Of a DNA stretch of 64,000 nt, positions 17,005 through 43,551 are shown in pieces. Source of the stretch: Candidatus Hydrogenedentota bacterium (lineage in GTDB: Bacteria > Hydrogenedentota > Hydrogenedentia > Hydrogenedentales > JAEUWI01); the NCBI GenBank assembly GCA_016791475.1, contig JAEUWI010000034.1, positions 1-64,000 on the forward strand, given 5' to 3'. Under the pieces are notes generated by a model that was not told the origin of the DNA, did not search any database, and was given only the letters and a program-made list of their open reading frames with translations. Position numbers and translations under genes: made by a program. The first letter of the stretch is position 1, and the number at the start of each line of letters is the position of its first letter.

Positions 17005-17892
17005 CTACCCCAAACTCTCCAGCGCCTGAAGCAGCATGGCCTTGACGGACGACTTGGACACCGGGCCCTTCTTGAAGTTCACCGTCACCGTCGCGCTGGG
17101 CAGGTCGATGCGGTAGGTCTGGTCTTTGGGTGCTTCGGTGGCTTTCGCGGCGGGTTTCTGGGGCGTTGCCGGTGCGGGAACGACGGCCGGAGTCTTCTTG
17201 CCTTTGGCCTCGTCGATCTTCGCGCGGATCTCGCGGTTGGGCTTGCCGTCGAGAACGTCTCTGACAAGTCCCTTCTGGAGCTTCACGTCGTCGACGCGGC
17301 TGATGCGCATGACGGCGTCGTAGGGCACGGTTTTCTCATGGGTGCGCAGTTGCTGCTGGAGGACGGGGGGGAGGGTGAGGATGCGGAGCATGTCGCTGAC
17401 CCAGGATTCGCGCTTGCCGATCATCTTGGCGAGGTCGCGCTGGGTCTTGACGGCGGGATCTTCGTCGAGGATGGCCTGGAGGGCTTCGGCGAGCTCTACG
17501 GGGGGCACGTCTTCGCGTTGGACGTTGCTGACGATACTACGGCGGCGGCGGGCCTGGCCTTCTTCGGGATCGGTGATGACGACGCGAAGCTGCTTGAGGC
17601 CGGCTTTCTTGGCGGCGCGGAGGCGGCGGTGTCCGGTGACGACCATGTATTTGCCGTCTTCGTGGGGTGTAACGGTGAGGGGCTCGATGACGCCGAGTGC
17701 CTTGACGGTGTCGATGAGGCCGTCCATGTTGTTGAAGGTCTTGCGCTCGTTCTGCGGATCTTCGACGAGCAGCTCGATCTCCAGGAGCTGGGCGCCGCGC
17801 TTGGGGATCGCGGGAATGGCGCCTTTGCCTTTCTCGCGGACGAGCTGGAGGCGGGAGGGGCGATTTTCGGCGGTGTTGTCTGCAGGGCTCAT
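17005..17892 (-). CDS. parB: ParB-family partition protein
   Basis: The 295-residue protein has the ParB N-terminal nuclease-like/CTPase fold (about 35-110), with NERKTF, GVIEPLTVTP, and the hallmark GHRRLRAAKKAG. A central helix-turn-helix follows (TQRDLAKMIGKRESWVSDML). A Pro/Ala-rich linker then leads to a C-terminal segment (TYRIDLPSATVTVNFKKGPV). ParB binds centromere sites and loads onto flanking DNA, working with ParA to segregate a replicon. The ATG at 17892 overlaps the parA stop (ATGA), so parA and parB are coupled. An upstream start would add 49 residues without ParB character. The position beside rep points to a plasmid rather than a chromosomal system. Confidence 0.92.
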   Translation of the reverse strand: MSPADNTAENRPSRLQLVREKGKGAIPAIPKRGAQLLEIELLVEDPQNERKTFNNMDGLIDTVKALGVIEPLTVTPHEDGKYMVVTGHRRLRAAKKAGLKQLRVVITDPEEGQARRRRSIVSNVQREDVPPVELAEALQAILDEDPAVKTQRDLAKMIGKRESWVSDMLRILTLPPVLQQQLRTHEKTVPYDAVMRISRVDDVKLQKGLVRDVLDGKPNREIRAKIDEAKGKKTPAVVPAPATPQKPAAKATEAPKDQTYRIDLPSATVTVNFKKGPVSKSSVKAMLLQALESLG

Positions 17893-18668
17893 GCGTTGGC
17901 TACCTTCTTGCGCTTTTTCATGTTGAACATACCCAGCACTTCGTCGCGCAGGGCGTTGATGTCCTCGGCCCCCTTGGAGCGCGGGCGGTATTCCAGAATC
18001 GATCCGCCGTGCTCGTCCACCTGGGCGAGCCAGCCGCAATTGCGGATCTCGGTCTGGGCAATGGCAATGTGCTCTTCGTGCATGCGTTCGATCACCCGTT
18101 TGCGCAGGCCGGCGCGGTGGAGGTTATTGAGCACGTGGAGCAGGTGGAAATCGGCGCTGGGCCGGATCTGGAGCAAGAGGCTGTAGAAGTTCGCATAGGA
18201 CTTCACGGCCTTGGTGCTTTCAAAGGGCACGATAAAGAGATCCGCCGGATAGATGGTATTTTCCATGATGGGCGAGATCTGGTTGGGCGCATCGACGATC
18301 AGGAAGTCGTAGGCGTCTTCCGGCAGTTGGGCGAGCACGCTGGCGTAGCCCTCGAAGTAGCCATCTTCCTGGATGATATCGCGGCCGTATTCCTCCAGGG
18401 CGAAGGCACTGGCCACAAAGGACAGGTTTTTGTGCTGGGTGGGGTGGATTACCGATTTCAGGGGTGCATGACCGAGCAGTGCCGCCACGATGGTGTCCTC
18501 CCAGGAGAGGCCGTCGCTCGCGTGGAGCCATTCGGAGACCTGGGCCTGGGGGTCCATATCGGAGAGGAGCACCTTCTTCCCGTCCTTCGCCAGGGAAGCG
18601 GCCAGGTTCATGGCGATGGTGGATTTGCCGCATCCGCCTTTGGCGTTGATGACTGTGACGATCTTCAT
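17889..18668 (-). CDS. parA: ParA-family partition ATPase
   Basis: The 259-residue protein has the deviant Walker A motif (INAKGGCGKSTIAMNLA) with the signature lysine near its start, Walker A' (LLSDMDPQAQ) and Walker B (DFLIVDAPNQ). It lacks the N-terminal helix-turn-helix of large plasmid ParA proteins, so it is of the small (type Ib or chromosomal-like) class. Such ATPases form gradients on the nucleoid and pull ParB-bound DNA apart. The gene overlaps rep upstream (18665-18668, ATGA) and parB downstream (17889-17892), so it sits in the middle of a coupled replication/partition operon. Confidence 0.93.
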   Translation of the reverse strand: MKIVTVINAKGGCGKSTIAMNLAASLAKDGKKVLLSDMDPQAQVSEWLHASDGLSWEDTIVAALLGHAPLKSVIHPTQHKNLSFVASAFALEEYGRDIIQEDGYFEGYASVLAQLPEDAYDFLIVDAPNQISPIMENTIYPADLFIVPFESTKAVKSYANFYSLLLQIRPSADFHLLHVLNNLHRAGLRKRVIERMHEEHIAIAQTEIRNCGWLAQVDEHGGSILEYRPRSKGAEDINALRDEVLGMFNMKKRKKVANA

Positions 18669-20587
18669 GCGTTCACCACCTCCTGGCCCAGTTGGGTCGG
18701 GTTATGTTTGCGGTCCCATCCCCAGAAATCGAGAATGGACCCGTCGAGTGCTTTGTAATATTCGTAGAAGCGCTTCAAGTGTTCCTTGTCGCTGTCGAAG
18801 GCGGCAAGCATCTGATGGATAAATTCGGGCGACTGGCAATAGGGCGATTTCGCCAGGAAATCACGCTGGCGGATCTCTTCGCCTTCGAAGGCGGCATAGA
18901 GCAGTGGGTTGTCGTCGCGCAGGGCGGTCTCCTGCTCGCGGATATAGTCGAGGTAGTCCCCGCGGAAGCGCTCATAGTGCTGCTTCCGGGCCCGGGCGTT
19001 CGCTTTCTTCTCCGCTTCGCGCACCTTCCGGCGGAATTCCACCACGAAAGCATCACCATGTCGGGTGAGGGCCAGCTTGAGGGAGCGGGGCATGCCGGGG
19101 TTGGCATTTTCCCGATCGCGCACATACTCGCCGAAGCTCCGGCCCATCCGGTGGACCTTGTCCTCGTGGGGGTAGTGACGGAGGAGCTCCTTCACGAAGC
19201 GCTCGCCGGCTTCCACGTCCGTCAGCACCACGGCGGCGGCGGGAGTGTCGTCGTTACCCGCCCAGGCGGCATAGAAGTGGGCGGCGAAGACCCCACCGAG
19301 GCGCTCGGGGTTTTCCGTCTCCGGGTTGGGCCAGTTTTCCTCGATGGCCTTGCGCAGGAGTCCCAGGCGATTCCGGGTGGGGTTGCGCAGGGGGAGCCAC
19401 TCGCACTGCTCGATGATCTGAAGTGGGGGATAGGACTCGGCCAATCGCTTTGCCGTGCTCCCATCGAATCCCTCTTCCTTCAATCGAGAAAAAGCCCCCT
19501 CCACAGCAGCAGGTGCAGCCTGTTGTTGTTTACCAGTGTTCTTTAGGGTGTTATTTAGATCTGTTATTTCTATACCGGTGTCTAAAATGGACTGGTCCCG
19601 GTATCCTTCTTGAACTGCGACCGGTGCGGATTTTGAACCGGGGTCGGTATCCTTAATGGACCGGTTTTCGGTATCTTTTTTGAACCGCTCCCGGTCTACT
19701 TTTTGAACCGGTATATTCTCCGGTGCGTTCGCGGGGATCCGGTATCCTTTTTGAACTGGCTTCGCCTTCTCAATCGCGGGCGGCTCGGCGGAGTCCGGTG
19801 CACTTTTTGAACCGGTCAGGGGGCAAGTGCCTGTGTCACTCCACTTTATGCCATAGGTGGCGGCGCGGCTGGCCTGGCCCGCGTTGGCATCGAAGAAACC
19901 GTCTTCTACGCGCTGTATATGGTTGTTTTTGATGGAATGCTGTATGGCGTCGTTCAGACTGCGGCGCGAAGCAATCCCCGTGATCCGTTGGAGCCGGGTG
20001 AAGCTCATCTCCACCTGCTGGCGACGGAAGCCAAACTTGGTCTGGAAGCCGATGGTGTGGCGGATGATGGCGCCGACCACCTTGATGACGGCCAGGGACT
20101 CATTGGGCACGGTGAAATCGAAGAAGGCATTGGGGATGTAGGTGAGGTTGCCGTTGCCCGCATAGAAGCCAGCAAAAACCGACAAATCCTTTATGTATTC
20201 ATCCCGATCATCCCAACAAAGCTCGTAAAGCGCCGAAACCGCCGCCTGGCGGTGGCCCGAGGCCCGGCCTTCGCGGATACAGCGGATGAAGTGACAGGCG
20301 ACCGCCTCTTCCAGTGCCGGGCCGATGGCACCCCGACTGATGCCCGCTTCGCGGATGAGCTGATTGTAGGAGATAACCACCTCGGGTTCCTGCGGGTTGC
20401 CTTCGGCATCGCTCCAGCCCAGGGTTTTGCGTATCATATAGGCGACCAGGCGAACACAGCCCCGGGAGGCATGGCGCAGCACCACGTCGAAGAACTGGTT
20501 CGGCGTGTAGGTGGTGTTGCTCGTCGGCGCAGGGTAACCCCGGAAGGGTATTGCCTTTGCGTCGATCTTACTGTCCCGGGCTGCCAT
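18665..20587 (-). CDS. Plasmid replication initiator with two winged-helix domains and internal repeats
   Basis: The 640-residue protein begins with two related segments, NTTYTPNQFFDVVLRH (about 23-38) and GNLTYIPNAFFDFTVPN (about 145-161). Each is followed by helices and a wing (ISYNQLIREAGISRGAIGPA; MSFTRLQRITGIASRRSLND), as in phage/plasmid O-type and RepA initiators. Residues about 265-340 contain the short related peptides VQKGYR, FKKDTE, SIKDTD, VQEGYR and SILDTG. These are translated from 23-base DNA repeats, listed separately. The C-terminal half is helical and charged and resembles no domain I know. Initiator function is inferred from the fold, the repeats and the coupled parAB. The gene lies 3 bases after a small RHH regulator. 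Confidence 0.75.
   Translation of the reverse strand: MAARDSKIDAKAIPFRGYPAPTSNTTYTPNQFFDVVLRHASRGCVRLVAYMIRKTLGWSDAEGNPQEPEVVISYNQLIREAGISRGAIGPALEEAVACHFIRCIREGRASGHRQAAVSALYELCWDDRDEYIKDLSVFAGFYAGNGNLTYIPNAFFDFTVPNESLAVIKVVGAIIRHTIGFQTKFGFRRQQVEMSFTRLQRITGIASRRSLNDAIQHSIKNNHIQRVEDGFFDANAGQASRAATYGIKWSDTGTCPLTGSKSAPDSAEPPAIEKAKPVQKGYRIPANAPENIPVQKVDRERFKKDTENRSIKDTDPGSKSAPVAVQEGYRDQSILDTGIEITDLNNTLKNTGKQQQAAPAAVEGAFSRLKEEGFDGSTAKRLAESYPPLQIIEQCEWLPLRNPTRNRLGLLRKAIEENWPNPETENPERLGGVFAAHFYAAWAGNDDTPAAAVVLTDVEAGERFVKELLRHYPHEDKVHRMGRSFGEYVRDRENANPGMPRSLKLALTRHGDAFVVEFRRKVREAEKKANARARKQHYERFRGDYLDYIREQETALRDDNPLLYAAFEGEEIRQRDFLAKSPYCQSPEFIHQMLAAFDSDKEHLKRFYEYYKALDGSILDFWGWDRKHNPTQLGQEVVNA
19574..19816. 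repeat. Iteron-like 23-base repeats inside rep (candidate replication origin)
   Basis: Copies of a repeat close to ACCGGTTCAAAAAGGATACC (minus strand) begin, by their CGGT end on the plus strand, at 19576, 19599, 19622, 19645, 19669, 19692, 19740 and 19796. The first six are 23 or 24 bases apart, about two helical turns. Because 23 is not a multiple of three, successive copies are read in different frames (VQKGYR, FKKDTE, SIKDTD). The repeat is therefore conserved as DNA, not as peptide. This is what an initiator-binding origin inside its own gene would look like, as in lambda O. Confidence 0.7.
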
Positions 20588-20590
20588 AGG

Positions 20591-20809
20591 TTATGCGCTC
20601 TGTCGCGTTTCCTCTTCGTGGTTGATAGGTCGGCCATTCTGGGCCGCAAAGTCTTCGATGATCATGTTGACGATTTCGCTTCGCGAGCGTCGCTGAAAAA
20701 CGGGGGATTCGCGACGTAACTCGTCCAGATAGTCGAGGATACGGGCATCGAAGTTGATGCCGGTGGTGCTCTTGCTGCGGGTGGCCGCGCTATTTACAGG
20801 TGATGACAT
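20591..20809 (-). CDS. Small ribbon-helix-helix DNA-binding protein
   Basis: The 72-residue protein contains TTGINFDARILDYLDELRRE and RSRSEIVNMIIEDFAAQ, the strand-helix-helix pattern of CopG/Arc-type regulators. The spacing of the RSRSEIV block fits the second helix. Small RHH proteins before plasmid rep genes usually repress rep and set copy number. An inverted repeat just upstream (20833-20869) is a candidate operator. The ATG at 20809 is chosen because the extra 23 codons upstream would run through that operator. rep starts 3 bases after its stop. Confidence 0.7.
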   Translation of the reverse strand: MSSPVNSAATRSKSTTGINFDARILDYLDELRRESPVFQRRSRSEIVNMIIEDFAAQNGRPINHEEETRQSA

Positions 20810-20832
20810 GGGACCAAACTCCTTGATGAACC

Positions 20833-20869
20833 TTGTCGTTGTACGTTGATCGTGGACAACGTTCGACAA
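20833..20869. promoter_or_regulatory. Candidate operator of the rep-par operon
   Basis: Nested inverted repeats share nearly one centre: TTGTCG (20833-20838) with CGACAA (20864-20869), and ACGTTG (20843-20848) with CAACGT (20857-20862). They lie 24-60 bases upstream of the RHH gene start, where an autoregulatory operator would be expected. RHH proteins bind such repeated short half-sites. Confidence 0.5.
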
Positions 20870-21239
20870 CTTTGTCAAGGGAAAAATCTCCCTTCAATCG
20901 CAAAATGCAGCGTTGAAGGTAAAACTGAGGCCCAATATGTGGGGTTTGCCGTACATTGGGCCGAAGGCTGGGGCATTAAATACTTTTCCGAAAGGATAAC
21001 AGCAGGAAAACTAATAAAATCGCTGTCAAGAGTTTATTGCCCAGAAATCCAGGGTGCCACCCACCTTGGCGACCGGTGTGGAGAATGTCTCCCTATAAGT
21101 AGGGATGGGACGTTGCAGTTTTCTTGGGGGCGGGGTCAAAAGGCGAGGTATAGTCGACCGTTCGGGGGCAGGGAGGGGGAACTTGTAAGAGTTACTTGCA
21201 CGTTGTGCGGGTGGCCGGAAATCTTATCACGCGCCTGGC
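20870..21239. other. Intergenic region, nothing recognised
   Basis: About 370 bases between the candidate rep-par operator and the end of abiEii. A plus-strand frame is open for 137 codons from 20846, but it has no ribosome site, domain or protein-like composition. No hairpin or repeat stands out. Confidence 0.4.
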
Positions 21240-22223
21240 TCAGAATTCAGGCCGAGTAGTCTGGTGAGGTAAGCGTTGCTGCACGTTTCGCAACTTCCAG
21301 AGTATGGCGGGATGATCGGCCAATCGGGTCGCTTGAGCGGGCTCGTTCGGAAACAGTAATTCGAGCCGCAGTTCACCTTTGTGAATTGCTTCGACGTAGT
21401 CCTGTTCCTGTGGAGTCAGGTCGAGAAGCGGTTCGGCCACGCTCCAGGCGGTATCGAACAACTGATCCGGGTCCGGTGTTGCTCCAGCACTCAGCATGGG
21501 CACAAGTTGCTCCTGTGTCAATCGCGGTGTAAGTCGCGAAGCGACGACCGCGCGGGTATAGGTCGACAAGGGGTGGGGCAACATGGCGGACAGGGCAATG
21601 AAACAGGCGCGAAATTCAGGATGATTCGAGGTATCGCCCATGGTATTGCGATACTGGGCTACGTCCCACGCATCTCGTGGCGCGGAACGGTCCACGAAGG
21701 CGAGCAACTTTCCGATACCAAGCTCGAGCCGGGAAACTATGGCTATTTGCGGGCGATCCAGTTCGCCGGGTTGCCAGAGTTCTGCGCGGACCACACCCGC
21801 AAGGGGCTGTCGCCAGAGGAAGTTCAGATCGACCTCAACACGATCTTCTGGCCCCAGAGCGGAGGCGTATATCGCGTAGATTTTCCTTCCGGCAAATGCG
21901 TCGGCAGAGCGCTGCAGTCGAAAGCCCAGTCGGCGGGCTATATTCTCAACGGCCTCTTCAACCTCTGGACGTGCCGCTTGCATCGCTTCCCGATCAGGAT
22001 GCGCCACGTAGTTATAGTCCAGGTCCACCGACAGTCGCGTAGGAGCTTCGCCGAGGCATAGATTGAGCGCGGTTCCGCCTTTCAAGGCTAACGCCTTCCC
22101 AAGCAAGGGGTGCGCCGCAATGGCACCGGCCAGCGTGCCCAGTCGGATGACTTTCTCCAGTGATTGTAATTGGAATCCGGATTGTCCCGCGCACTGCTGG
22201 AGGTATTGAAGACTAGCGTTCAT
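21240..22223 (-). CDS. abiEii: AbiEii-type nucleotidyltransferase toxin
   Basis: The 327-residue protein shows the family motifs LALKGGTALNLCLG (the GG/S-type nucleotide-binding turn) and RLSVDLDYNY (metal-binding Asp-x-Asp), with a later acidic strand (VEVDLNFL) and the helical block GIGKLLAFVDRSAPRD. AbiEii proteins are DNA-polymerase-beta-like transferases that stop growth during phage infection. The related MenT toxins add nucleotides to tRNA. The ATG at 22223 lies inside the antitoxin gene (11-base overlap), the usual antitoxin-first order of type IV systems. It is near the length of other AbiEii toxins. Confidence 0.85.
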   Translation of the reverse strand: MNASLQYLQQCAGQSGFQLQSLEKVIRLGTLAGAIAAHPLLGKALALKGGTALNLCLGEAPTRLSVDLDYNYVAHPDREAMQAARPEVEEAVENIARRLGFRLQRSADAFAGRKIYAIYASALGPEDRVEVDLNFLWRQPLAGVVRAELWQPGELDRPQIAIVSRLELGIGKLLAFVDRSAPRDAWDVAQYRNTMGDTSNHPEFRACFIALSAMLPHPLSTYTRAVVASRLTPRLTQEQLVPMLSAGATPDPDQLFDTAWSVAEPLLDLTPQEQDYVEAIHKGELRLELLFPNEPAQATRLADHPAILWKLRNVQQRLPHQTTRPEF

Positions 22224-23028
22224 CGGGATCTCGCATCGATTCCAGTTCAGGCGGCAGGATCAGGTTCCACCGTGGGACCAGGATGCCGCCGCGACGACTG
22301 CGCACAAGGTATTGGGGCACGCGGGGGCGTTGCGCTTCAAGGCGGTCAAGGTACCCATCGTCAACGTGGAAGGTCTGACGGTGCGCTTCGAGAAACCAGC
22401 CGCTTGCCGCCCACAGGTTCGCGGTGGCGTAGGCTGTCAGTAACGTATCCAGCAGATCGAGGTCCAGCGTGGCGAAGCCCGCTGCCGATTCCAAGAACTC
22501 CGGCAGGCCACCCGCCAGATCGGGACGACGTAATCCGTCAACCAGTGTACGCTCTGGACCGGTGGCGCGCAGGAGTTGGCCGCGCCACTCCACCCGCCGC
22601 ACGCCCAGGCCAGTTTCGCCACGGTCGAGCAGCGGGCGAGGGTGATCCAGGAAGAGAACCCGTGCTCCACCGAGGGGCAGGGGAGGGCGGCGCTGATCGG
22701 TGAACAGGGTGACCTGATGCCACACCGAGTGGGCTGCGCCGAGCAGTTCCAGTGCGCTGTGATAGGAAAATATACCATCAGGACGGGCCGCGCGCGCCGC
22801 AAGGAAGGGGTCGGGCTGAAAATGATCCGGCGCAACCAGCGGCGGCACCACCGCATATATACCCCGGGACACATGGGTCAACTGGCCCGTCCGCAGATGA
22901 TGCTTCAACCGCTGCACCACGGCGGCCCGACCACCCGCTGGGCGCAAGGTCTCCTCGGCCTCCTCCAGGGAGAAGACCGGGTGCGTGGCGAAGAAGTCGC
23001 GGGTGCTTACTGGGCGTTGCGTATTCAT
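22213..23028 (-). CDS. abiEi: AbiEi-type antitoxin/transcriptional regulator
   Basis: The 271-residue protein begins with an N-terminal winged helix (RPVSTRDFFATHPVFSLEEA... LKHHLRTGQLTHVSRGIYAV), the characteristic AbiEi antitoxin domain, in which the GxLxxVxRGxY turn is conserved. The C-terminal part contains the AbiEi antitoxin core (GIFSYHSALELLGAAHSVWH; GPERTLVDGLRRPDLAGG). It should repress its own promoter and counteract the adjacent transferase toxin. The pair is a complete type IV toxin-antitoxin or abortive-infection unit. An upstream region of about 130 bases to the next gene should hold the promoter; no clear inverted repeat was picked out. Confidence 0.85.
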   Translation of the reverse strand: MNTQRPVSTRDFFATHPVFSLEEAEETLRPAGGRAAVVQRLKHHLRTGQLTHVSRGIYAVVPPLVAPDHFQPDPFLAARAARPDGIFSYHSALELLGAAHSVWHQVTLFTDQRRPPLPLGGARVLFLDHPRPLLDRGETGLGVRRVEWRGQLLRATGPERTLVDGLRRPDLAGGLPEFLESAAGFATLDLDLLDTLLTAYATANLWAASGWFLEAHRQTFHVDDGYLDRLEAQRPRVPQYLVRSRRGGILVPRWNLILPPELESMRDPDER

Positions 23029-23158
23029 ACGGGGGAAATAATAGCCTGTTTACAAGCGAAATGTCAAGCCTATATTTGACGATGGGACGCGGAATGGGTA
23101 TATTTACATCCTTTAGCCAATCGAATTGACAAATCGTCTCAGTGTTCTCCGTGCTGCA

Positions 23159-23779
23159 TCACTCATCGCACCCGGCCTCTCCAAAAGCTAAGCGCCTAAT
23201 GATCTCGTAGACCCAAATGGTGACGTAGCGCGATTCACGTAAAGCCCGGGCCCGTTCTTGCGGGGTGAGCCGGGCGCGGAGCGCATCGAGGGTAGCGTCA
23301 TCGACGTGCTCTTCGCCCAGGGCTTTTAGCCCGTGAATCAGGAGCGCGGTTCTGGGGGAGAGGCCCGTGGTTTCCTTGTTGGTGCGGTGCTTCATGTGGA
23401 TGCGGCCGCCCTCCCAGGCATAGCGCTTGGTGGGGCCATCGCTGAAATACTCCCACTGCGCGGGCACCTGGGTTGAAAGGCCCAGCAGATTCAGGGCTGT
23501 GACACCGGTGGGCACGAGGGTCCAGCCATGAGCGCGGGCAATTGCCCGGGCAATGGCATCGGGATCGGGACTCGCCGGTCCCTGACGCACCGCGCTGTAG
23601 GCGGGGAAATCATAGACCCCGCGCATGGGTCGGCGTAGCGTGCCGGCGTTGGCCAGACGCAGCAGCCCCTTCTTCGCCGCTTCATAGCCCGCGAGATCGA
23701 GGAAGTCCTTTGGCGTAAACGCGCTGCCGGGGCCGGACCGACGCACGCGCGCAAGTATTTTATCTTCTGTGGTTTGCAT
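23159..23779 (-). CDS. DUF6088-family (AbiEi-like) protein without a nearby toxin
   Basis: The 206-residue protein has an N-terminal winged-helix region (ILARVRRSGPGSAFTPKDFL... LLRLANAGTLRRPMRGVYDF). The core follows (GWTLVPTGVTALNLLGLSTQ; RHTNKE-like segment RTNKETTGLSPRTALLIHGL), as in DUF6088 proteins, distant relatives of AbiEi antitoxins. The ATG at 23779 starts the domain; a further upstream start adds 17 residues. No toxin gene follows or precedes it within operon distance, because the AbiE pair has its own antitoxin. A palindrome TTCGGACGTCCGAA lies 100 bases upstream. A fragment of a second copy is at 45146-45328. Confidence 0.72.
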   Translation of the reverse strand: MQTTEDKILARVRRSGPGSAFTPKDFLDLAGYEAAKKGLLRLANAGTLRRPMRGVYDFPAYSAVRQGPASPDPDAIARAIARAHGWTLVPTGVTALNLLGLSTQVPAQWEYFSDGPTKRYAWEGGRIHMKHRTNKETTGLSPRTALLIHGLKALGEEHVDDATLDALRARLTPQERARALRESRYVTIWVYEIIRRLAFGEAGCDE

Positions 23780-24407
23780 AGGGGATAGGTTCTCTTGTTT
23801 GTCCCGAATTATAGCGCGAATTAGGGACAATGCAAAGGAGAAATCGGGAGGGAGAAGCCGAGCTGAGTACGATAGAACTTCGGACGTCCGAAAGTGCTGC
23901 GGCCATGTGGCAGCCCCCGAATGCGTGCGGACGATCCGAGGCGCTCATGTCCTGTTTAGCGGCGAGGGATGGATTGTTATAAATATATGCCAAAAAAGGA
24001 GTTATCGCTTGTTCTATTGAGCTTATATAGTGCTCGTGTCCTGTTTATGTCTTGTTCGACACTCCGCAGCGTCCATGCAGATTGTGGCGGGTTTGGCGGG
24101 ATTGTGGCGGGTTTACGCTACACGCTGATGACTGGCCGATAAGCACGGATGATGTCTCAAATGTCCCATAAATGTCCCATAAAATGTCTCATATCCAAAC
24201 CTTGTGCAAGTGAATGGCACGATCGGCACGATTCTGACACGATTCCAAGGACCGTGTGTGATTGGCACAGTCGTCCCCTGATGGCCCATTTGGCCCTTTT
24301 GCGGCCCATTGGCGGAATGTCTACTTACCGCCGCGTGCCGACCCTTGGAATCGCCCCTCTTCGAGGTAACCGAGATAGTGCTGGTCCGCCCGTTGCTGTG
24401 GCCCTAC
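23780..24407. other. Intergenic region with a palindrome and direct repeats
   Basis: About 630 bases without a gene. It contains the 14-base palindrome TTCGGACGTCCGAA (23879-23892), whose core recurs at 26313-26326, and two sets of direct repeats (24081-24193, listed separately). GGCACGAT-like words repeat at about 24217-24245. The base composition is lower in G+C than that of neighbouring genes. It could hold promoters for the DUF6088 gene and, less certainly, a second origin-like element. Confidence 0.45.
24081..24193. repeat. Short direct repeats
   Basis: ATTGTGGCGGGTTT occurs at 24081-24094 and again at 24101-24114. ATGTCYCA-type units follow at 24152, 24161, 24172 and 24184; the middle two are identical (ATGTCCCATAA). 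The regular spacing (9-12 bases for the second set, 20 for the first) recalls iterons or a regulator-binding array. Function is unknown. Confidence 0.45.
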
Positions 24408-24710
24408 CTACGGAACGCGCGTCGCTTCGGCGTGGAGCCGGAGTCCGAGTGCGTTGATGACCTTAAGCACGGTATCAAAACTCGGGCTGTGGTCGCCCGA
24501 GAGGGAGCGGTAGAGGCTCTCGCGGGACAATCCCGCGTCGTGGGCAATCTGGGTCATGCCCTTGGCCCGGGCGATGTCGCCGAGGGCCTTGGCGATGAAG
24601 GCGGCGTCACCGGGGGCTTCTTCGAGGCACGCTTCCAGATAGGCCGCCATCTCTTCTGGGGTACGAAGGTGCTCGGTGACGTCGTATCGGGTGGTTTGTG
24701 TTTTGGTCAT
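24408..24710 (-). CDS. Addiction-module antidote-type HTH protein (orphan)
   Basis: The 100-residue protein has the layout of plasmid addiction-module antidotes (HigA-like): MTKTQTTRYDVTEHLRTPEE, then YLEACLEEAPGDAAFIAKALGDIARAKG, then an XRE helix-turn-helix (MTQIAHDAGLSRESLYRSLS) and FDTVLKVINALGLRL. The usual partner is a RelE/HigB-type toxin encoded directly upstream. No such gene is present: only a 22-codon frame overlaps its start. It is therefore an orphan antidote or a regulator, possibly left after toxin loss. The ATG is at 24710. Confidence 0.82.
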   Translation of the reverse strand: MTKTQTTRYDVTEHLRTPEEMAAYLEACLEEAPGDAAFIAKALGDIARAKGMTQIAHDAGLSRESLYRSLSGDHSPSFDTVLKVINALGLRLHAEATRVP

Positions 24711-24775
24711 CGTGGTACTCCAATAGATCGTGCGCCAGACGCGGCATTGCGCTTCTCAGCCTGAATTGTAAGCAT
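24707..24775 (-). CDS. Possible 22-codon leader or remnant ORF
   Basis: A tiny frame (MLTIQAEKRNAASGARSIGV, then PR) ends in a TGA that overlaps the ATG of the antidote-type gene (ATGA). The exact overlap suggests translational coupling: it could be a leader peptide or the remains of a lost upstream toxin gene. There is no clear ribosome-binding site and no family match, so it may be chance. Confidence 0.2.
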   Translation of the reverse strand: MLTIQAEKRNAASGARSIGVPR

Positions 24776-24894
24776 GGTAACACGTTATTGGTGTGAAGTC
24801 GTGCCGCCCGTTTAGCGTCGGAGGCGACCTCGTAAACTTCACGTCGCCTTGAATCACTATTGCAAACCATAACATTATGCTTTATGCTTTCTTC

Positions 24895-25878
24895 ATGGAC
24901 TTTTCCGCATTGACCGAGAAGAAAGCGCAGCTTGACGCCCAGCGACCCCTGTCGGCCGCGTTGCTTCGCAATCTGGAAGACTGGTTTCGGGTTGAGCTGA
25001 CCTATACCAGCAACGCAATTGAGGGCAACACACTCACACGCCGCGAAACCGCGCTGGTGGTGGAGAAGGGCTTGACCGTCGGTGGCAAGTCGCTGGTTGA
25101 ACACCTTGAAGCGGTGAACCACGCCCGTGCCGTCGACTGGATCCGGGACCAGGTTGCTCGGCAGCCACGGGAATTGGACGGGCGAGATATCCTCGAACTT
25201 CACACGGTGGTCTTGAAGGGCATCGACGATGCGAATGCCGGGCGCTACCGGAATGTGGCGGTGCGTATATCAGGCTCGATGGTCGTCCTGCCCAATCCTG
25301 TGAAGGTCCCCGGGCTGATGGAAGAATTCGCGGCGTGGCTCCGCAGCGCTCCCGGTCTTCATCCCGTGGAACTCGCCGCAGAGGCCCACTATCGTCTGGT
25401 TACCATCCACCCATTTGTGGATGGGAACGGTCGCACCGCGCGACTCCTGATGAATCTGATCCTGCTGATGGAGGGCTATCCAGCGGCGATCATCCAGAAG
25501 CGCGAACGGCTGGCGTATATCACCGCGCTCGAAAAGGCCCAACTCGGCGGATCCAAAGACGACTACCTGAAGCTGATCGCGCGGGCGGTGGAGCGCTCGC
25601 TGAACATCTACCTTAAGGCCTTGCAGGGCGACGCCAGCGCGGGCCTCGGTGAGGCGCCGCTCCTCAAGATAGGGGCGCTGGCGAAGCGCGCGGGCGTGGC
25701 GAACTCCACGATCCGCCATTGGACCAAAGAAGGGCTGCTCGACGTGGCCGAGACCACGGCATCGGGCTACCAGTTGTACGCGGCAGACATGGTGGAACGG
25801 ATCAAGCGAATCGGAGCGCTGAAGGCACAACGCTACACCCTGCAGGAGATCCGGGAGGCGATGGGGAAGGAGGAGTAA
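24895..25878 (+). CDS. Fic-domain protein with C-terminal MerR-type HTH
   Basis: The 327-residue protein contains the Fic active site HPFVDGNGRTAR (His near residue 172), which transfers AMP or another phosphate-linked group to target proteins. The N-terminal segment has TSNAIEGN, matching the (S/T)xxxE(G/N) inhibitory helix that blocks ATP binding, so it is a self-inhibited (class II) Fic. Residues about 260-325 form a MerR-like winged helix (LLKIGALAKRAGVANSTIRHWTKEGLL split around IRHW, then YTLQEIREAM). DNA binding suggests autoregulation. ATGs at 24877 and 24895 are both possible; neither has a clear ribosome site. It is one of few plus-strand genes in the island. Confidence 0.87.
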   Translation: MDFSALTEKKAQLDAQRPLSAALLRNLEDWFRVELTYTSNAIEGNTLTRRETALVVEKGLTVGGKSLVEHLEAVNHARAVDWIRDQVARQPRELDGRDILELHTVVLKGIDDANAGRYRNVAVRISGSMVVLPNPVKVPGLMEEFAAWLRSAPGLHPVELAAEAHYRLVTIHPFVDGNGRTARLLMNLILLMEGYPAAIIQKRERLAYITALEKAQLGGSKDDYLKLIARAVERSLNIYLKALQGDASAGLGEAPLLKIGALAKRAGVANSTIRHWTKEGLLDVAETTASGYQLYAADMVERIKRIGALKAQRYTLQEIREAMGKEE

Positions 25879-26097
25879 TTCCTGCCGACACCCAACAGCC
25901 TCTTAAATACCATTTTTTTCCCCTATCCCGCCGAAAAGTTTCTCTATTCAAGCCGCCGTGCCCTTGCTATACTGGCCATTGTCGATGCGCTCAACGGCGT
26001 GGCGGCATCATTCAAGTGGGCTGGCAACCCGGTAAACCCGATCTCACCAATCGGGCTAAGGGGGCGGACTTTACCACCCGCCATTGTCAGACCCGTA
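25879..26097. other. Gap between fic and the domain V motif
   Basis: About 220 bases without a gene. Near 26060-26082 a hairpin GGGCGG...CCGCC precedes the domain V element, as a small domain III or IV hairpin might. A run of seven T near 25912 follows the fic stop and may serve as a weak terminator. Confidence 0.35.
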
Positions 26098-26162
26098 GAG
26101 CCGGATGCGTGGAGACGCGCTTGTCCGGTTCGATGGAGGCTTGCTGGCGTAATCCTCCTGAC
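26098..26162 (+). ncRNA. Group II intron domains V and VI (3' fragment)
   Basis: Bases 26098-26131 match the 34-base domain V plan position by position. They begin GAGCCGGATG with the AGC triad at positions 2-4. A three-pair upper stem is capped by a GAGA (GNRA) tetraloop at 15-18, and the element ends TCCGGTTC, pairing with the start. A domain-VI-like hairpin follows (GGAGG ... TAATCCTCC, with an unpaired A), ending near 26162. No reverse transcriptase or domain I lies upstream because fic ends at 25878, so this is probably a truncated intron or a ribozyme derived from one. Confidence 0.65.
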
Positions 26163-26242
26163 TTGTCCAGCGGACGGGCCAGGAGAGTAATCCCAGCATT
26201 CTATCCAATAGCGATTGCCTTGAAGCAGGGCGACGCGGACAT

Positions 26243-26992
26243 GCCCCGGTGGAACAGTTGGCAACGACTGGGCCAACGGGGCTGTGTTGATCTAAGACGG
26301 TGCGCGGCCAACTTCGGACGTCCGAAGTTGCGCGGCAAATCCGCCCAGGGGGTTCGTGACTACAGGGTGCAAGCCCCAGGTCCGTTCAACCTGCGCTGGC
26401 GTGGGGAGTGTCCGTCCTGGTGACAGGCGGACTCGGGTCCCGGAAGGGAACCGGCGTTCGGTGAGAAAAAGCCGACGGCGAAGAGCTCAACCATGAGAGG
26501 GGCGAAAGCCCTTGCCAGTAAGAATTACGCGAGACGGTGCCGAACCGCGAAGGGCCATGATCGGCGGGTAAGGGGGAGCTTCTTACTTCTGCCCCCTGAA
26601 ATCGCCTCTTGCAGCCAATGCGAGGGGCGGAAACTGCATCGGGACGGGAGTCCCGGTGTACGGTCATCGGTTACGGGGGATAACACCCCCTAGCGACGTG
26701 ACGCGTGATTTGAAGGTCAACACTAACGCGGGAACCGCTGAGGCGGCCGGGGTGGTACCCGGTGCCTGGCCCATTCAGCCAGGTGATTGAAAAGCCTCAG
26801 TGGGGGAGTGTGGTCTGAGTAGAAGTCGAAAGGTTTTCGAGGGTGCAGGCGGCAAGGCAGTCGCACGCACCTTGGTGTGTTTCCGGGTGGTGCCGGAACA
26901 CAAATGCCACGACGAAAGGACCGACGGGTTTTTACCCATTTGAATGACGCCAGGGGGACGGTCAGCCAGTGCTGGCCTGGCCGTCCCCCTTT
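26243..26992 (+). ncRNA. Candidate large structured RNA (about 750 nt) with terminal hairpin
   Basis: This stretch has no plausible gene but many well-formed hairpins, several with GNRA loops: 26243-26282 (inner loop GCAA), 26410-26432 (GTGA loop, stems GTCCG/CGGAC and CCTG/CAGG), 26436-26452 (GGAA), 26498-26513 (GAAA), 26640-26655 (GGGA), 26675-26690 (five G:C pairs), 26765-26783 and 26876-26902. It ends in a nine-pair hairpin, GGGGGACGG/CCGTCCCCC (26953-26989), followed by TTT, like an intrinsic terminator. The density of GNRA loops suggests tertiary packing, as in ribozymes or large bacterial ncRNAs. Strand and exact ends are inferred. Confidence 0.55.
26309..26330. repeat. 22-base perfect palindrome sharing its core with 23879-23892
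   Basis: Arms CAACTTCGGAC and GTCCGAAGTTG meet with no spacer. TGCGCGGC flanks it as a direct repeat on both sides. The inner 14 bases, TTCGGACGTCCGAA, occur again at 23879-23892. It may be a regulator or recombinase site, or a hairpin of the structured RNA. Confidence 0.55.
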
Positions 26993-27476
26993 ACCCCAGG
27001 CAGGGACACGACCGGCCGCACCCAATTCATCGGGAGATGGATCGGGTGCGGCGTGAGCATGGGATGATCGCAGCAATGCGGGAAAGGAGGTTATGCAAGC
27101 AGAGGATTTGAGTGCGCAACGGGTATGAATTGGGCACGGGGAACTTACGGAAGTAAGTGCGCCGTGCCGAATGAACGGACGCCGGGGCTTTCCGCAGGTG
27201 CGGGAGGTACACCGGATGCCGGGCATGCACCGCGGATGTTATCGGGCATTTGCCCTTTACCGCGGCTTGTGCTAAAGAACCCCGTGAGGCGCTCGTGTCG
27301 CGGGTTCTGTCTGATGAGCTGTAACGCATATCGAGACCGCGACACGGGCGCTTCTGCATCATGGCAATTCGCCATGGCGGAAGCAGGCGCCGCAAGGGAC
27401 GATAAAGGCTTTGCGGGATTGTGCCTTCACCAAAACAATCCCGCCCCTTCATTCGGGGGAATTGCCAGGGGGCGCG
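26993..27476 (+). other. Structured leader region before the 27477 ORF
   Basis: About 480 bases without a gene. It includes a nested hairpin at 27134-27167 (GCACGG/CCGTGC outside, ACTTAC-GGAA-GTAAGT inside). A long hairpin at 27289-27351 has 15-base arms (GCGCTCGTGTCGCGG, one G:U pair) around a 33-base loop. AAAGGAGG at 27085-27092 precedes an 11-codon frame by only two bases, which is too close to be convincing. The region may be part of the RNA element or a long 5' leader. Confidence 0.45.
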
Positions 27477-28172
27477 ATGATGATCTACCGATGTGTTGCC
27501 ACCAGCCTTGCGGGCTTCGTTCAACAGGTGGCCACGGCCTACCTGCCCCATGGCTATTGGTTCTACTGCCAGGGCTTCGTTCCGAAGGGGAAGTGCCCGG
27601 AAGCCATCGACGCGAAACTGATCGCGAAGTACGGCGCGGCCCTGTCCAAATGGCAGCGGGCCCGGCGAAAGCGCGGGGGACATGCAAACCTTCAATACAT
27701 TCGCCTCGGTTCCATCTTTCTGCTCATGGCCACGAAGGGCGTGCATCCGTTCTTCGAGGAGGAAGGGGCAACCATCCGTGATGCCCGCAAGGTGCCGATC
27801 CGGATTGGCGGTTATTCCATCAGCGTGCGGAAGGGACCCGACGGTCGGCTTCACAGCCACGTCCGCATTGATCGCGCACCCTATGGCGAATTGATGGCCC
27901 AGTACCTGGAGCGCTGCAACCGCCTTTCCACGGCCCGACTCGTCAGCGAGCTTTACCATCTGCCCTATGAACCCTATGCTCCGGTGCGCCGGCAGTATCT
28001 GATGCTGTTGCGAAGGATCAACGCGATCCGTAAAGAGCATGGGCGCCAGACCATTCCCTTGGAGGCGCTGCCCTTGCGCAGACGGATCGTGCGGCCTTTT
28101 GAAGAGGACGCCCGTGATCCGGGTCGGGCGCCCGAAGGGGAGGCTATTCCGCCGTGGGTGTCAACGCCGTGA
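27477..28172 (+). CDS. Unrecognised basic protein next to the structured RNA
   Basis: The 231-residue protein begins MMIYRCVATSLAGFVQQVAT. I do not recognise its family. It is basic (QRARRKRGGHANLQYIRLGS; LRRRIVRPFEE). It has a glycine-rich beta segment (IRIGGYSISVRKGPDGRLHS, then HVRID) and a helical C-terminal half with many Tyr and Arg. An RNA- or DNA-binding role would fit the basic character and the neighbouring structured RNA, but this is inference. The double ATG at 27477 follows CAGGGGG; a TTG at 27411 would extend it through the leader. Its end overlaps the 3' end of the convergent ArdC-like gene by 29 bases. No transposase or reverse-transcriptase motif is visible. Confidence 0.6.
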   Translation: MMIYRCVATSLAGFVQQVATAYLPHGYWFYCQGFVPKGKCPEAIDAKLIAKYGAALSKWQRARRKRGGHANLQYIRLGSIFLLMATKGVHPFFEEEGATIRDARKVPIRIGGYSISVRKGPDGRLHSHVRIDRAPYGELMAQYLERCNRLSTARLVSELYHLPYEPYAPVRRQYLMLLRRINAIRKEHGRQTIPLEALPLRRRIVRPFEEDARDPGRAPEGEAIPPWVSTP

Positions 28173-28950
28173 TGATTTCCGAGGCGGTTTTGCGGATGCC
28201 ATCGAGGGAGGCCTCCAGGGTTTCGACGGTACCATTGTAGAGCTGTATATAGTCGCTCGACGCGGTGCTGCATTCTAGTCCGATCGCGCTGGAGACGATG
28301 AAAGCTACCGCTTCGGCTTCCAGTTCGCGGGATTTGCACGTGCCAATCAAGCCGTGATCCGTCCAGTGGAGCAATTCGTGGGCAAGTTCGTGAACCAAGA
28401 CGGAGAATTCCGCTGCGGGGCTCAGCTCCGGACGTATGCGGATTTTGCCACCAGAGGAAGCACCTTCGGCATTGCCCAACTCGTCGGAATACTCCAGCAC
28501 GATGCCCTGGCTTGCGATGAAGGCTTTCAGCCGCTCGGTGTGGTCAAGTGGATCGCCACTGGCTTCCGCAGGGCAGGGGAGGGCCTCGCCGTCGGTCTGG
28601 GAGACATCGAACACATACGCCGCACGGAATCGGATGCGGGGTTGGTCATCCTGTAGCGCGGTGTCACTGGAATCGCGAAAGACCATCGGTGCAATGATGG
28701 TGATGCCCTGCTCGCCCTTCTTTACGAAACGTCCAAGCTTCTTCCACGCCCGGAATCCACTGACCCGCGTCGCACTGGGGAATTGCGACTGAATCAGCAC
28801 GATATTCCGGAAACTGTAGCGATGAAATCGCGCCATCGCCGCGAGATAGGCCACGAGCTGATCGCTCTTGCCGCTTTCAAGATTCTCGACGAGGGATTTC
28901 AGGCCCTGATCGATGAGTTGCTTTACCTGATCTGTTTTCTCCGTGTTCAT
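28144..28950 (-). CDS. ArdC-like protein: ssDNA-binding domain plus zincin metallopeptidase
   Basis: The 268-residue protein has an N-terminal ArdC-type domain (about 10-110; LVAYLAAMARFHRYSFRNIV, FRAWKKLGRFVKKGEQGITI). A metallopeptidase segment follows, with HELAHELLHW supplying an HExxHxxxH zinc site and a downstream Glu-rich helix (SRELEAEAVAFIVS). ArdC proteins are plasmid antirestriction factors that bind single-stranded DNA as it enters a new host. The ATG at 28950 has a strong GGAGG six bases upstream. It lies downstream of hsdR but after a likely terminator (29077-29111). An antirestriction gene beside a restriction operon is expected if the region arrived as a mobile plasmid. Confidence 0.82.
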   Translation of the reverse strand: MNTEKTDQVKQLIDQGLKSLVENLESGKSDQLVAYLAAMARFHRYSFRNIVLIQSQFPSATRVSGFRAWKKLGRFVKKGEQGITIIAPMVFRDSSDTALQDDQPRIRFRAAYVFDVSQTDGEALPCPAEASGDPLDHTERLKAFIASQGIVLEYSDELGNAEGASSGGKIRIRPELSPAAEFSVLVHELAHELLHWTDHGLIGTCKSRELEAEAVAFIVSSAIGLECSTASSDYIQLYNGTVETLEASLDGIRKTASEIITALTPTAE

Positions 28951-29076
28951 GTCCGCCTCCTGGGGGTTAAGGTTGTTTTCTTCGCGGAGACGGCCGACGA
29001 AGCGAACCCGGCGGTCAAGGTGGAGGCGAAGCACGACCTTGACGGCCCCAGGGGTGAGCGCAGTCAGAATCCGCGC

Positions 29077-29111
29077 AAAAAGAAAACCACCGCCCAGGAG
29101 GAGGACGGTGG
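29077..29111 (-). terminator. Intrinsic terminator of the hsd operon
   Basis: On the minus strand, CCACCG and CGGTGG (29106-29111 and 29087-29092 on the plus strand) form a stem, extended by CC/GG. The run TTTTCTTTTT follows at once (29086-29077). It lies 31 bases after the hsdR stop and separates the defence operon from the ArdC-like gene. Confidence 0.75.
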
Positions 29112-29141
29112 GGGAGGGGAGATGGGGGAGTTGGATCGAGG

Positions 29142-32443: not shown

Positions 32444-33508
32444 TCACTTTGAGCTCGTTTCGATCGGGTCGTGCTTTATCCAACCCTGCTTGACCAGGGT
32501 ATCCGCAGCGATGCCGATCTGTCGGGGTGTGAACTGCCGCTTGCGGGGACTCCACTCGTAGACTCGCTCAACCACGTCGTCCATGGCAGAGACCCCTTCC
32601 TTCGTCATCACCCAATGGACCGTCGATAGCATTTCCAGGCCAAAAGGCGACTCGAAGCCCTCTGTCAGCGCCGTCACCCGGTCGAAGCGCGCACGGGTAT
32701 CGGGATGCTGGCCGAGAAAGGCCCCGGCATCCTCCACCGCGCCCGGCACCAGAGACAGTTGCTTGTCGGGCGCGTCTCCGCCGTCGTCGTAACCCACCAA
32801 CAGATGTCCCTCGATAGCATGCAACACATGGCGCAGGTTCGCCGCATAGGGCCCGTAGACCGCTTTTTCGTAATTAAGGCGTAAGGGTTCTCCCGCCTCC
32901 TGCATGAAATACATCAACTTGTGGACTTCAAGCAGGGTGACGAAAGGGTCGAGCAGGCCACGAAAGTAGCGGTCTATCAGCTCCACCAGCGCCGCCCGCC
33001 CGGCAGTCATGCGGGGCACCTCGCGGCTGTGGTGCATGGTGTCCGATGCGGGCGCGCCCTTGGGCTCATAGATCCGCACCGTCACGTCGGGCAGCGCGCC
33101 CAGGGCCGCCTCAATGCGTGGCTTCACCTCCACCCATTCCAAGCCGCCCAAACCGCTGCCCAGAGGTGGGAGGGCGATGGAGCGAATCTTCCGTTCCTCT
33201 ATGAACGCTGCAAGGGCCGCTAGACCGTGGTCAATATCTTCCATGCGGCTCTTGCCCCGCCAGTGCCGCTTCGTCGGAAAGTTGATGATATAGCGCGGCG
33301 GCGTGAGCTGGCCCGTCTCGAACACAAACATGCGCCCCGGCTGGACCTCCTTGCGCTTGCATGCTGACGCATAGGCCTTGAAGTTTTCCGGCCACGCGTT
33401 CTTGAACTGCAAGGCAATGCCCCGCCCCATCACGCCCACACAGTTCACGGTGTTGACGAGGGCCTCGGATTCATCGCGCAGCATATCGCCGCTGGTCAGT
33501 TCAATCAT
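32444..33508 (-). CDS. darG: DarG antitoxin: macrodomain DNA ADP-ribosyl glycohydrolase
   Basis: The 354-residue protein has the DarG-type macrodomain at residues 1-155: GDMLRDESEALVNTVNCVG and VMGRGIALQFKNAWPENF form the ADP-ribose pocket, PTKRHWRGKS carries the catalytic Lys, and LPPLGSGLGGLEW completes it. It removes ADP-ribose that DarT attaches to thymidines on single-stranded DNA. The C-terminal half (about 170-354; LLEVHKLMYFMQEAG) is the region that binds and inhibits the toxin in known DarG proteins. The gene begins 16 bases after darT. DarTG is both a toxin-antitoxin pair and an anti-phage system. Confidence 0.92.
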   Translation of the reverse strand: MIELTSGDMLRDESEALVNTVNCVGVMGRGIALQFKNAWPENFKAYASACKRKEVQPGRMFVFETGQLTPPRYIINFPTKRHWRGKSRMEDIDHGLAALAAFIEERKIRSIALPPLGSGLGGLEWVEVKPRIEAALGALPDVTVRIYEPKGAPASDTMHHSREVPRMTAGRAALVELIDRYFRGLLDPFVTLLEVHKLMYFMQEAGEPLRLNYEKAVYGPYAANLRHVLHAIEGHLLVGYDDGGDAPDKQLSLVPGAVEDAGAFLGQHPDTRARFDRVTALTEGFESPFGLEMLSTVHWVMTKEGVSAMDDVVERVYEWSPRKRQFTPRQIGIAADTLVKQGWIKHDPIETSSK

Positions 33509-33524
33509 GGTTGTGCCTCATGGG

Positions 33525-34169
33525 TCAATAATACCAATTATTCCGAATTTCCACCACCGGCCGGTGCCCGTCTTGTGGTAACGTCTTGATGACTCGCTTA
33601 TAAATGACGTCGGAATACACCCCGATGCGCTCCACAAGCGGCCAGGGGAAACGTTGCTCCAGCAGGAACTCGGCCTGTTTGCCTTCCTTGCAACTCTGCC
33701 AATCGGTCGCCTGTACCGCTTTCCAGTCGATTTCCGCCAATTTTCCCAGATCGGCCCGATCCTCGAAGTATCGCGCACCCGCGTTGGACAGGGTGAAGGC
33801 CCATCGCGCACCCCGCTGCGCCGCCCAGTCCACCGTAGCCTGAAGGTCGGCCTCCAAATGGATGATCGGGCCTTGCCCGCCCCGGTAAGACAGCTCCGGG
33901 TGGTTGGCGCGGGCGATAAGATACAGCATAACCGAGCGCGGGCAGAAATAGAAGGGGACACAATCGCCGACATGCAACTCGGGATGGCTGGTCAAGGTCA
34001 GCTCGGTCATCCGCCGTTGTTTAATGTCGCTCATTCCAATCGTCGTTCCAGGGGGATGCCGCCGCGCGATTTCCGCATCGCACCACAGGCACCCATCCGC
34101 CACGATGGACGGTGACCGATCCACATGCACGATGTGATATAGCTTGGGCTGGGCAGGTACGAGACTCAC
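33525..34169 (-). CDS. darT: DarT toxin: DNA ADP-ribosyltransferase
   Basis: The 214-residue protein (DUF4433) shows LYHIVHVDRSPSIVADGCLW and the NAD-site region IGMSDIKQRRMTELTL, then the phage-defence loop YFCPRSVMLYLIARANHPEL. The C-terminal KQAEFLLEQRFPW carries the catalytic Glu. It transfers ADP-ribose to thymidine bases in single-stranded DNA and blocks replication. The start is GTG at 34169, whose GTGA overlaps the hsdS stop, so toxin synthesis is tied to translation of hsdS. Its antitoxin darG follows. Confidence 0.92.
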   Translation of the reverse strand: MSLVPAQPKLYHIVHVDRSPSIVADGCLWCDAEIARRHPPGTTIGMSDIKQRRMTELTLTSHPELHVGDCVPFYFCPRSVMLYLIARANHPELSYRGGQGPIIHLEADLQATVDWAAQRGARWAFTLSNAGARYFEDRADLGKLAEIDWKAVQATDWQSCKEGKQAEFLLEQRFPWPLVERIGVYSDVIYKRVIKTLPQDGHRPVVEIRNNWYY

Positions 34170-42791: not shown

Positions 42792-43259
42792 GATTATGCG
42801 ACTCCGGCACGACGAGGGATCGCCGCAAAGCACGCGCCCATCGTCTCTTGAGGCTTGGACTGGACGGACGGGCAGGTCCCGACGCCGGAATGGGCGGCAT
42901 CACTCTGGATGTCTTCGAGGTTGAGCATGAATTCTGATTCCCCTGCGCACGGGCCCGCACCGACGTTCGCAGCACGTGGTAAAGGGCCAGTAAGATGCTC
43001 CCGCATAGGCGCTTAGGGCCTTTCCAACTGCCGTGGTGGTTGTCACAGGATAGTACCAGATGGGGAACGGGGTGCTCAATGCGGCTGACAGGTCACGGCC
43101 GGATGAACACGGGTCGATGGATATATTTCATTTCTGGCGGTGAAAATTGCGGGACAGCGTTGAGCGCAGGTGGGTGCCGAGCCGGCGAAGACGTGGGCAG
43201 GGAGGCCCGGTGGTGCAATCGAACCATTTTAAAAAAATCCCTGCCGCATTGAACAACTA
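42792..43259. other. Intergenic region upstream of hsdM
   Basis: About 470 bases separate hsdM from the small plasmid-type gene. It should contain the hsdM promoter on the minus strand. No gene, repeat or strong hairpin was recognised. Confidence 0.4.
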
Positions 43260-43526
43260 TTATTCGTCGTCACTCTCCGAGCGCTGGTTGGCGCGGAAGA
43301 TCCAGATGTGGGCCAGGTCCGCCACTTTGGCGACCAGAGGCAGTTCATCGCGCCCGAAGGAGTCGGAGGTCTTCCACTCGTCTTCGTCCTTGTAGAGACG
43401 CGTGATCCGGACGCTATACCGTGTGCCGTTCTTGGATTCGTTCTGCCAGATGGCGGCCTTGATGGTGCCCAGGCGGAGTTCTTCCACGGGCTTGTTGGCC
43501 GTTGTTTTCTTGTTGCTGCTGGCCAT
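43260..43526 (-). CDS. Small conserved plasmid-type protein (88 aa)
   Basis: The 88-residue protein contains ELRLGTIKAAIWQNESKNGT and RYSVRITRLYKDEDEWKTSD, then SFGRDELPLVAKVADLAHIW. This compact beta-rich layout is common among small proteins encoded on plasmids and integrative elements. It recalls single-stranded-DNA-binding-like or DUF736-like proteins, but I cannot name its activity. The ATG at 43526 has GAGG upstream. It lies 25 bases after the DUF932 gene, so the two are probably co-transcribed. Confidence 0.65.
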   Translation of the reverse strand: MASSNKKTTANKPVEELRLGTIKAAIWQNESKNGTRYSVRITRLYKDEDEWKTSDSFGRDELPLVAKVADLAHIWIFRANQRSESDDE

Positions 43527-43551
43527 GATGGCCTCCTTTCGTGAGGAGTGG

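Follow-up and report, generated by a model that had tools for sequence, protein, structure and literature searches.

A probable CP group II ribozyme with a distant AcpG partner on a plasmid-like contig of Hydrogenedentota

The window, which is the whole stretch of 64,000 nt that was analysed, contains a gene-free region that folds strongly as RNA and lies next to a gene for a 231-residue protein. The locus raises the question of what this RNA is and whether the protein belongs to it. A preliminary description proposed an ornate RNA with a linked protein, named group II introns among its analogies, and suggested a new RNA-protein element. The structured RNA is real, since the segment 26243-27000 has a minimum free energy of -379 kcal/mol compared with -318 +/- 6.4 in 20 shuffles (z = -9.5). 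The general picture of an ornate RNA with a linked protein was also correct. The RNA and the protein are very probably a circularly permuted (CP) group II ribozyme and its known companion AcpG, with back-splicing chemistry, so the novelty of the element is not upheld. Few large ribozymes are known from nature, and the CP group II ribozymes belong to them. They were described, under the name 'T-large' RNA, by Roth et al. 2021 (PMC8637638). The RNA class and its association with the protein are both already published in that work (PMC8637638); the unit is of a known kind and not new.

Domains and splice sites of the RNA

The RNA begins near 26020 rather than at 26243, where the preliminary description had placed its start, and it includes D5-D6. 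An Rfam search gave a match to RF00029 (group II D5-D6) at 26096-26209 with 47.9 bits and an E-value of 2.5e-6. Once this segment is included a known family explains the RNA, an outcome that the preliminary description had itself listed as speaking against a new element. The order of the parts is P1-P2-D5-D6-[18-nt circle, 26210-26227]-D1-D2-D3-D4 (Table 1), and the length of about 900 nt is that of the published CP group II ribozymes. Both Rfam and the alignment place D5-D6 5' of D1-D4, as expected for a CP group II RNA, and the canonical layout, in which D1-D6 are contiguous and flanked by the splice sites, is not found. The ORFs that overlap or adjoin the RNA have no Pfam match, so there is no intron-encoded reverse transcriptase (RT) ORF inside it. 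Judged by sequence and covariation, the RNA is a member of the CP group II class.

Table 1. Positions of the ribozyme parts, the downstream elements and acpG in the window.
Feature	Position	Strand	Observation
5' helices	26021..26090	+	Basal stem 26021-26027/26084-26090, P1 26037-26055, P2 26063-26082
P2 loop UACCAC	26072-26077	+	Covaries with D2 loop
Domain 5	26098..26131	+	RF00029, covariation
Domain 6	26132..26209	+	Bulged branch-point adenosine A26203 (predicted); 3' splice site after AU at 26209
Linker, predicted RNA circle, 18 nt	26210..26227	+	Splice-site motifs aligned in 31 loci
IBS1 GAAGCA	26222-26227	+	EBS1-IBS1 covariation
Domain 1 with 5' splice site GGGCGAC (26228)	26228..26690	+	Compensatory changes in 85/111 pairs
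EBS1	26584-26589	+	Covariation with IBS1
Domain 2	26735..26803	+	Loop GUGGUA 26752-26757 pairs with P2 loop
Domain 3	26812..26922	+	Covarying helices
Domain 4 by position	26951..26990	+	Long GC hairpin, variable sequence, no ORF inside
Extra conserved element	27122..27167	+	Lies after the ribozyme and before acpG; motif GGUAUGAAUUGGGC and GGAA-loop hairpin
Second leader hairpin	27289..27351	+	Lost in L020; some Hydrogenedentota relatives keep it with paired changes
10-bp hairpin, about 33 nt before acpG	27413..27444	+	GGGATTGTGCC-like motif recurs upstream of many acpG genes
acpG, 231 aa	27477..28172	+	Distant AcpG/TTHC007 homologue (HHalign); 73 related loci

Covariation in the homologues is strong. 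Compensatory changes occur in 202 of 250 predicted pairs from P1 to D3 among 31 relatives, compared with 25-57 of 109-140 pairs in column-shuffled controls. The 5' helices have such changes in all 21 of their 21 consensus pairs, and double changes occur in 18 of 24 pairs of D5-D6. Domain 5 has an AGC triad (26099-26101), a GAGA tetraloop (26112-26115) and a 2-nt bulge; the triad is replaced by CGC in 5/26 relatives, and the window has AGC.

The splice sites in the window read ...CUAUCCAAU, then the 18 nt of the linker, then GGGCGACGCGGAC... The dinucleotide AU precedes the linker in all 31 aligned loci and GGGCGA follows it in 30 of the 31, with linkers mostly of 12-55 nt and one of 142. The 18-nt linker agrees with the class pattern of NU at the 3' splice site, GGGCG at the 5' splice site and about 15-86 nt between them. 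An alternative 5' splice site, GUGCG at 26300 with a 90-nt circle, was dropped when the 31-locus alignment pointed to GGGCG at 26228. EBS1 (NNNUUC) pairs with IBS1 (GAANNN), and five of the six pairs are formed in the window. At the variable positions of these two motifs, none of 5000 shuffles, which ignore relatedness, reached the pairing observed in the 31 loci. The loop-loop pseudoknot between P2 and D2 is unique to the CP class (PMC8637638). Its loops change together (UACCAC/GUGGUA, CAUCAC/GUGAUG, CACUAC/GUAGUG), and the pairing was 160 compared with 124 +/- 5.6 in shuffles that again ignore relatedness, with 0/1000 reaching the observed value.

A covariance model, R1, was built from this clade alone and then run on two plasmids named in PMC8637638. 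It matched pPNAP05 at 134-262 (E 1e-8), where the R1 alignment leaves 32 nt between the splice sites; the published prediction for the pPNAP05 circle is also 32 nt (PMC8637638). The match in pTT8 is on the minus strand at 5917-5777 (E 2e-4), where it adjoins TTHC007 and is divergent from it. No Rfam match to OLE, HEARO/omega RNA, GOLLD or ROOL was found in the window RNA. A HEARO/OLE-type element was considered and rejected, as the group II domains explain the structure; a decayed canonical intron beside an unrelated RNA was also rejected.

The AcpG protein and its pairing with the RNA

The ORF at 27477 had been described as a protein of unknown family. It is a real conserved gene; the family is that of AcpG, at a distance. 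Neither Pfam nor NCBIfam has a match to the protein. BLASTP against TTHC007/AcpG gave no similarity and profiles were therefore used. HHalign against six Thermus AcpG proteins gave an E-value of 5.5e-7 with a probability of 92.3 over 165 columns, compared with 0.24 for reversed profiles and 0.0088 for the best of 120 column-shuffled comparisons. Therefore, the protein is treated as a distant AcpG.

Searching genome contigs with the window protein alone found no close relative. A search with a multi-member protein alignment, covering 85,000 species with a single genome apiece, succeeded and gave 73 related loci (about 70 relatives). By record title most are from Planctomycetota, Verrucomicrobiota, Acidobacteriota and Hydrogenedentota, with Omnitrophota and others also present; single phylum assignments may be wrong since most loci are metagenome-assembled genomes. 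Relatives on plasmids come from a planctomycete, Leptolyngbya, Calothrix and Planococcus, and relatives are absent from the phage records and viral contigs searched. The unit is also present in Tautonia sociabilis (L040 and L071), a planctomycete in culture. The stretch from about 25975 through the protein is kept at 86% in a same-genus genome, where the protein homologue has 82% identity. It is less complete in another genus of the order (76%), where the homologue has 74% identity. The order-mates G040 and G060 are contigs SLHB01000247.1 and CAIYET010000450.1.

The conservation of synteny is strong. The RNA is followed by acpG on one strand at 57/62 loci with 1.7 kb or more of sequence ahead of the protein, with a median distance of 1289 nt from D5 to the protein (57 loci). 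A full R1 match on the acpG strand is found at 54 of these 62 loci; the match in L072 is cut by the contig end, and the RNAs in L043 and L077 are 5'-truncated. Three loci (L035, L037, L042) have an intact acpG and no RNA upstream, and in L084 and L090 the match covers just a part of the protein. CP RNAs without acpG also exist (PMC8637638). A strict RNA-protein partnership is therefore not proven, given RNA-less acpG genes here and acpG-less CP RNAs in the published set. Since the orientation of RNA and acpG is mixed in other phyla (PMC8637638), the nearly fixed order characterises this clade.

Two further observations concern individual loci. The Calothrix plasmid (L012) has two CP-type D5-D6 units upstream of acpG, at 1626-1764 and 3777-3906, about 2.1 kb apart. 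L037 and L042 carry very similar acpG genes on contigs labelled Acidobacteria and Gemmataceae, both beside ParA and both lacking the RNA, which reflects either recent transfer or a binning error.

The alignment of the clade is deep enough for a confident AcpG model, and AF2 models of two members have pLDDT values of 93.1 and 94.3. Foldseek against PDB ranked the retron Eco8 RT first for both models, with low TM-scores; for one model the next match was a group II intron RT (8h2h_D). Against viral models most of the top matches were RNA polymerases, also with low TM-scores. The best E-values were 1.8e-3 to 1e-2, with no match at E <= 1e-3. A profile search of PDB sequences gave nothing meaningful. 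HHalign against 16 RTs was not significant (E 0.28, while shuffles reach 0.04), and the YADD active site expected of an RT is absent from the AcpG family alignment. An RT-like palm lacking the catalytic aspartates is therefore offered as a hypothesis, suggestive but not significant, given the weak Foldseek E-values and unsupportive sequence profiles.

Plasmid setting and possible roles

The contig of the window (83.5 kb) has genes for ParB, ParA, a 640-aa protein, ArdC, AbiEii, HsdR and DarT/macro. The 640-aa protein beside ParA has no Pfam match and is a putative replication protein. When the first 64 kb were compared with an 83.5-kb contig from the same genus (G001:C32), DNA was alignable only at three sets of stretches. 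The first is parB-parA-640aa (17005-20954) and the second is RNA-acpG-ardC (25975-29131). Two further stretches, at 43.2-45.0 kb (43195-45029), align at 81-88% identity. Among the related loci, 14 have ParA-like proteins and 12 a RepA/Rep3-type initiator family; some relatives sit in long chromosomal contigs, such as L064. A plasmid backbone is likely to be the setting of the RNA-acpG unit, and its recurrent linkage to genes for partition and replication suggests a role carried by plasmids.

Adjacent macro-domain and DarT (ssDNA ADP-ribosyltransferase) genes form a DarTG-type toxin-antitoxin pair at 32444-34169. The region 21240-23830 has an AbiEii toxin gene (21240-22223), a neighbour without a Pfam family and a separate DUF6088/AbiEi-like gene. 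The region 24408-25878 holds an antidote gene of HI1420 type and a gene for a Fic-domain protein that has a MerR-type helix-turn-helix, the latter directly 5' of the ribozyme. The whole unit is single-copy in the window genome, contrary to the multiple copies that a mobile element might have shown. Group II-type RTs are encoded elsewhere in the genome (G000:C8:130557-131192 and G000:C62:34030-34653) and could in principle act in trans on the ribozyme.

The proposed mechanism takes the ribozyme and its AcpG partner as one unit on a plasmid-like replicon. The transcript would fold into a group II core, and from its anatomy the window copy is predicted to splice. The 2'-OH of A26203 in D6 would attack at 26228, the 5' splice site; the linker, its 3' end now free, would then attack the 3' splice site at 26209/26210. 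The products would be an 18-nt circle and a T-shaped branched ribozyme with its EBS1 retained, for which RNA or single-stranded DNA with a matching site could be a target in trans. The 2021 study detected no processed form in cells (PMC8637638). AcpG, whose gene follows directly on the same strand, would bind and fold the RNA, most likely as a maturase-like cofactor, a role given slightly less than even chances. A more specific and more tentative proposal is that AcpG is a miniaturised, catalytically dead group II RT/maturase, detached from D4 at the permutation and kept as a folding cofactor. If correct, the dead maturase would account for the otherwise unexplained AcpG as well as for the missing intron-encoded protein, and would answer what became of that protein.

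The best surviving alternative is that the RNA is a long structured leader that controls acpG, with splicing altering mRNA stability or exposing the acpG start. The shared strand, the nearly fixed distance to acpG and the conserved hairpins between the two are consistent with a leader. The hairpins at 27134-27167 and 27289-27351, seen earlier as a second leader, are indeed kept in close relatives, apart from the loss of the second in L020. The first lies in the extra element (CUAUGAAUUGG followed by the hairpin), which has counterparts in about 40 loci with a mean fold z of -3.0. These folds are of single sequences compared with shuffles rather than of an alignment consensus; RNAalifold yielded no consensus owing to the poor alignment of the stem. 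A pattern search did not find the extra element in pTT8, pPNAP05 or the Planococcus plasmid, which carry the Thermus, Polaromonas and Planococcus CP loci. The extra element could serve as a leader or as a site to which AcpG binds, and the hairpin at 27413-27444 is a possible autoregulatory site. The GC hairpin followed by TTT, previously read as the end of the RNA, sits at the D4 position, and scans for terminators and promoters found nothing. Conservation of all the catalytic features argues against a leader as the whole explanation, and since the Thermus protein is divergent from its RNA, cis control cannot be the general role. The leader reading is unlikely.

It is somewhat less likely that the branched ribozyme uses reverse splicing to strike foreign or competing nucleic acid in trans, with AcpG as the targeting protein. 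Such targeting has been proposed for the CP ribozyme (PMC8637638), EBS1 is predicted to remain after splicing, and restriction, AbiE and DarT genes are also in the window. However, the EBS1 site is short and covaries with the unit's own IBS1, nothing ties it to a target, and the two plasmid-like contigs do not share the neighbouring defence genes.

A functionless relic, in which a scrambled group II intron is carried passively on a plasmid, is very improbable. In its favour, no mobility mechanism is evident for the RNA-acpG unit, a few relatives (L043, L077) have nothing but truncated RNAs, and pTT8 lacking most of its ribozyme continued to replicate (quoted in PMC8637638), a result that also counts against the main reading. 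Against it, a relic would keep neither the gene order with acpG nor the splice sites, EBS1-IBS1, P2-D2 and most helices, which are maintained by compensatory change across several phyla. The weakest reading, in which a large ornate RNA of a new class and a new protein make up a mobile or regulatory element, draws on the strong fold, the lack of a Pfam or NCBIfam match and of any single Rfam family spanning the RNA, but it is scarcely credible and a new RNA class is excluded, as all the class-defining CP group II features are present, R1 finds published members and the protein is homologous to AcpG.

Comparison with known systems

The reading of the locus as a CP group II ribozyme with AcpG leaves several points that are new here: the extended distribution, the nearly fixed pairing, the par/rep linkage, the extra element and the dead-maturase idea. 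The supplement of PMC8637638 may already hold some of the phyla. A diverse clade with near-constant pairing on one strand provides a clean system to probe AcpG as a protein cofactor.

OLE, HEARO/omega RNA, GOLLD and ROOL resemble the window RNA in being large and structured, and some of them are linked to a protein. Bacterial group II introns of the canonical kind, which encode an RT/maturase, share the D1-D6 parts and presumably the chemistry, but in the window the domains are permuted, the splice sites are internal and reversed, and D4 has no RT ORF. AcpG/TTHC007 of Thermus thermophilus pTT8 shares the profile homology, a similar size and a linked CP RNA with the window protein; it differs in the lack of BLASTP similarity and in its divergent arrangement, which in the window is same-strand. 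The closest likeness is to the CP group II ribozymes (PMC8637638), with the same domain order, splice-site motifs, range of circle sizes, EBS1-IBS1 pairing, P2-D2 pseudoknot, length and frequent plasmid residence. The window clade differs from them in occurring in phyla that the main text of that paper does not name, in its nearly fixed order and strand of RNA and acpG, and in its extra element downstream of D4.
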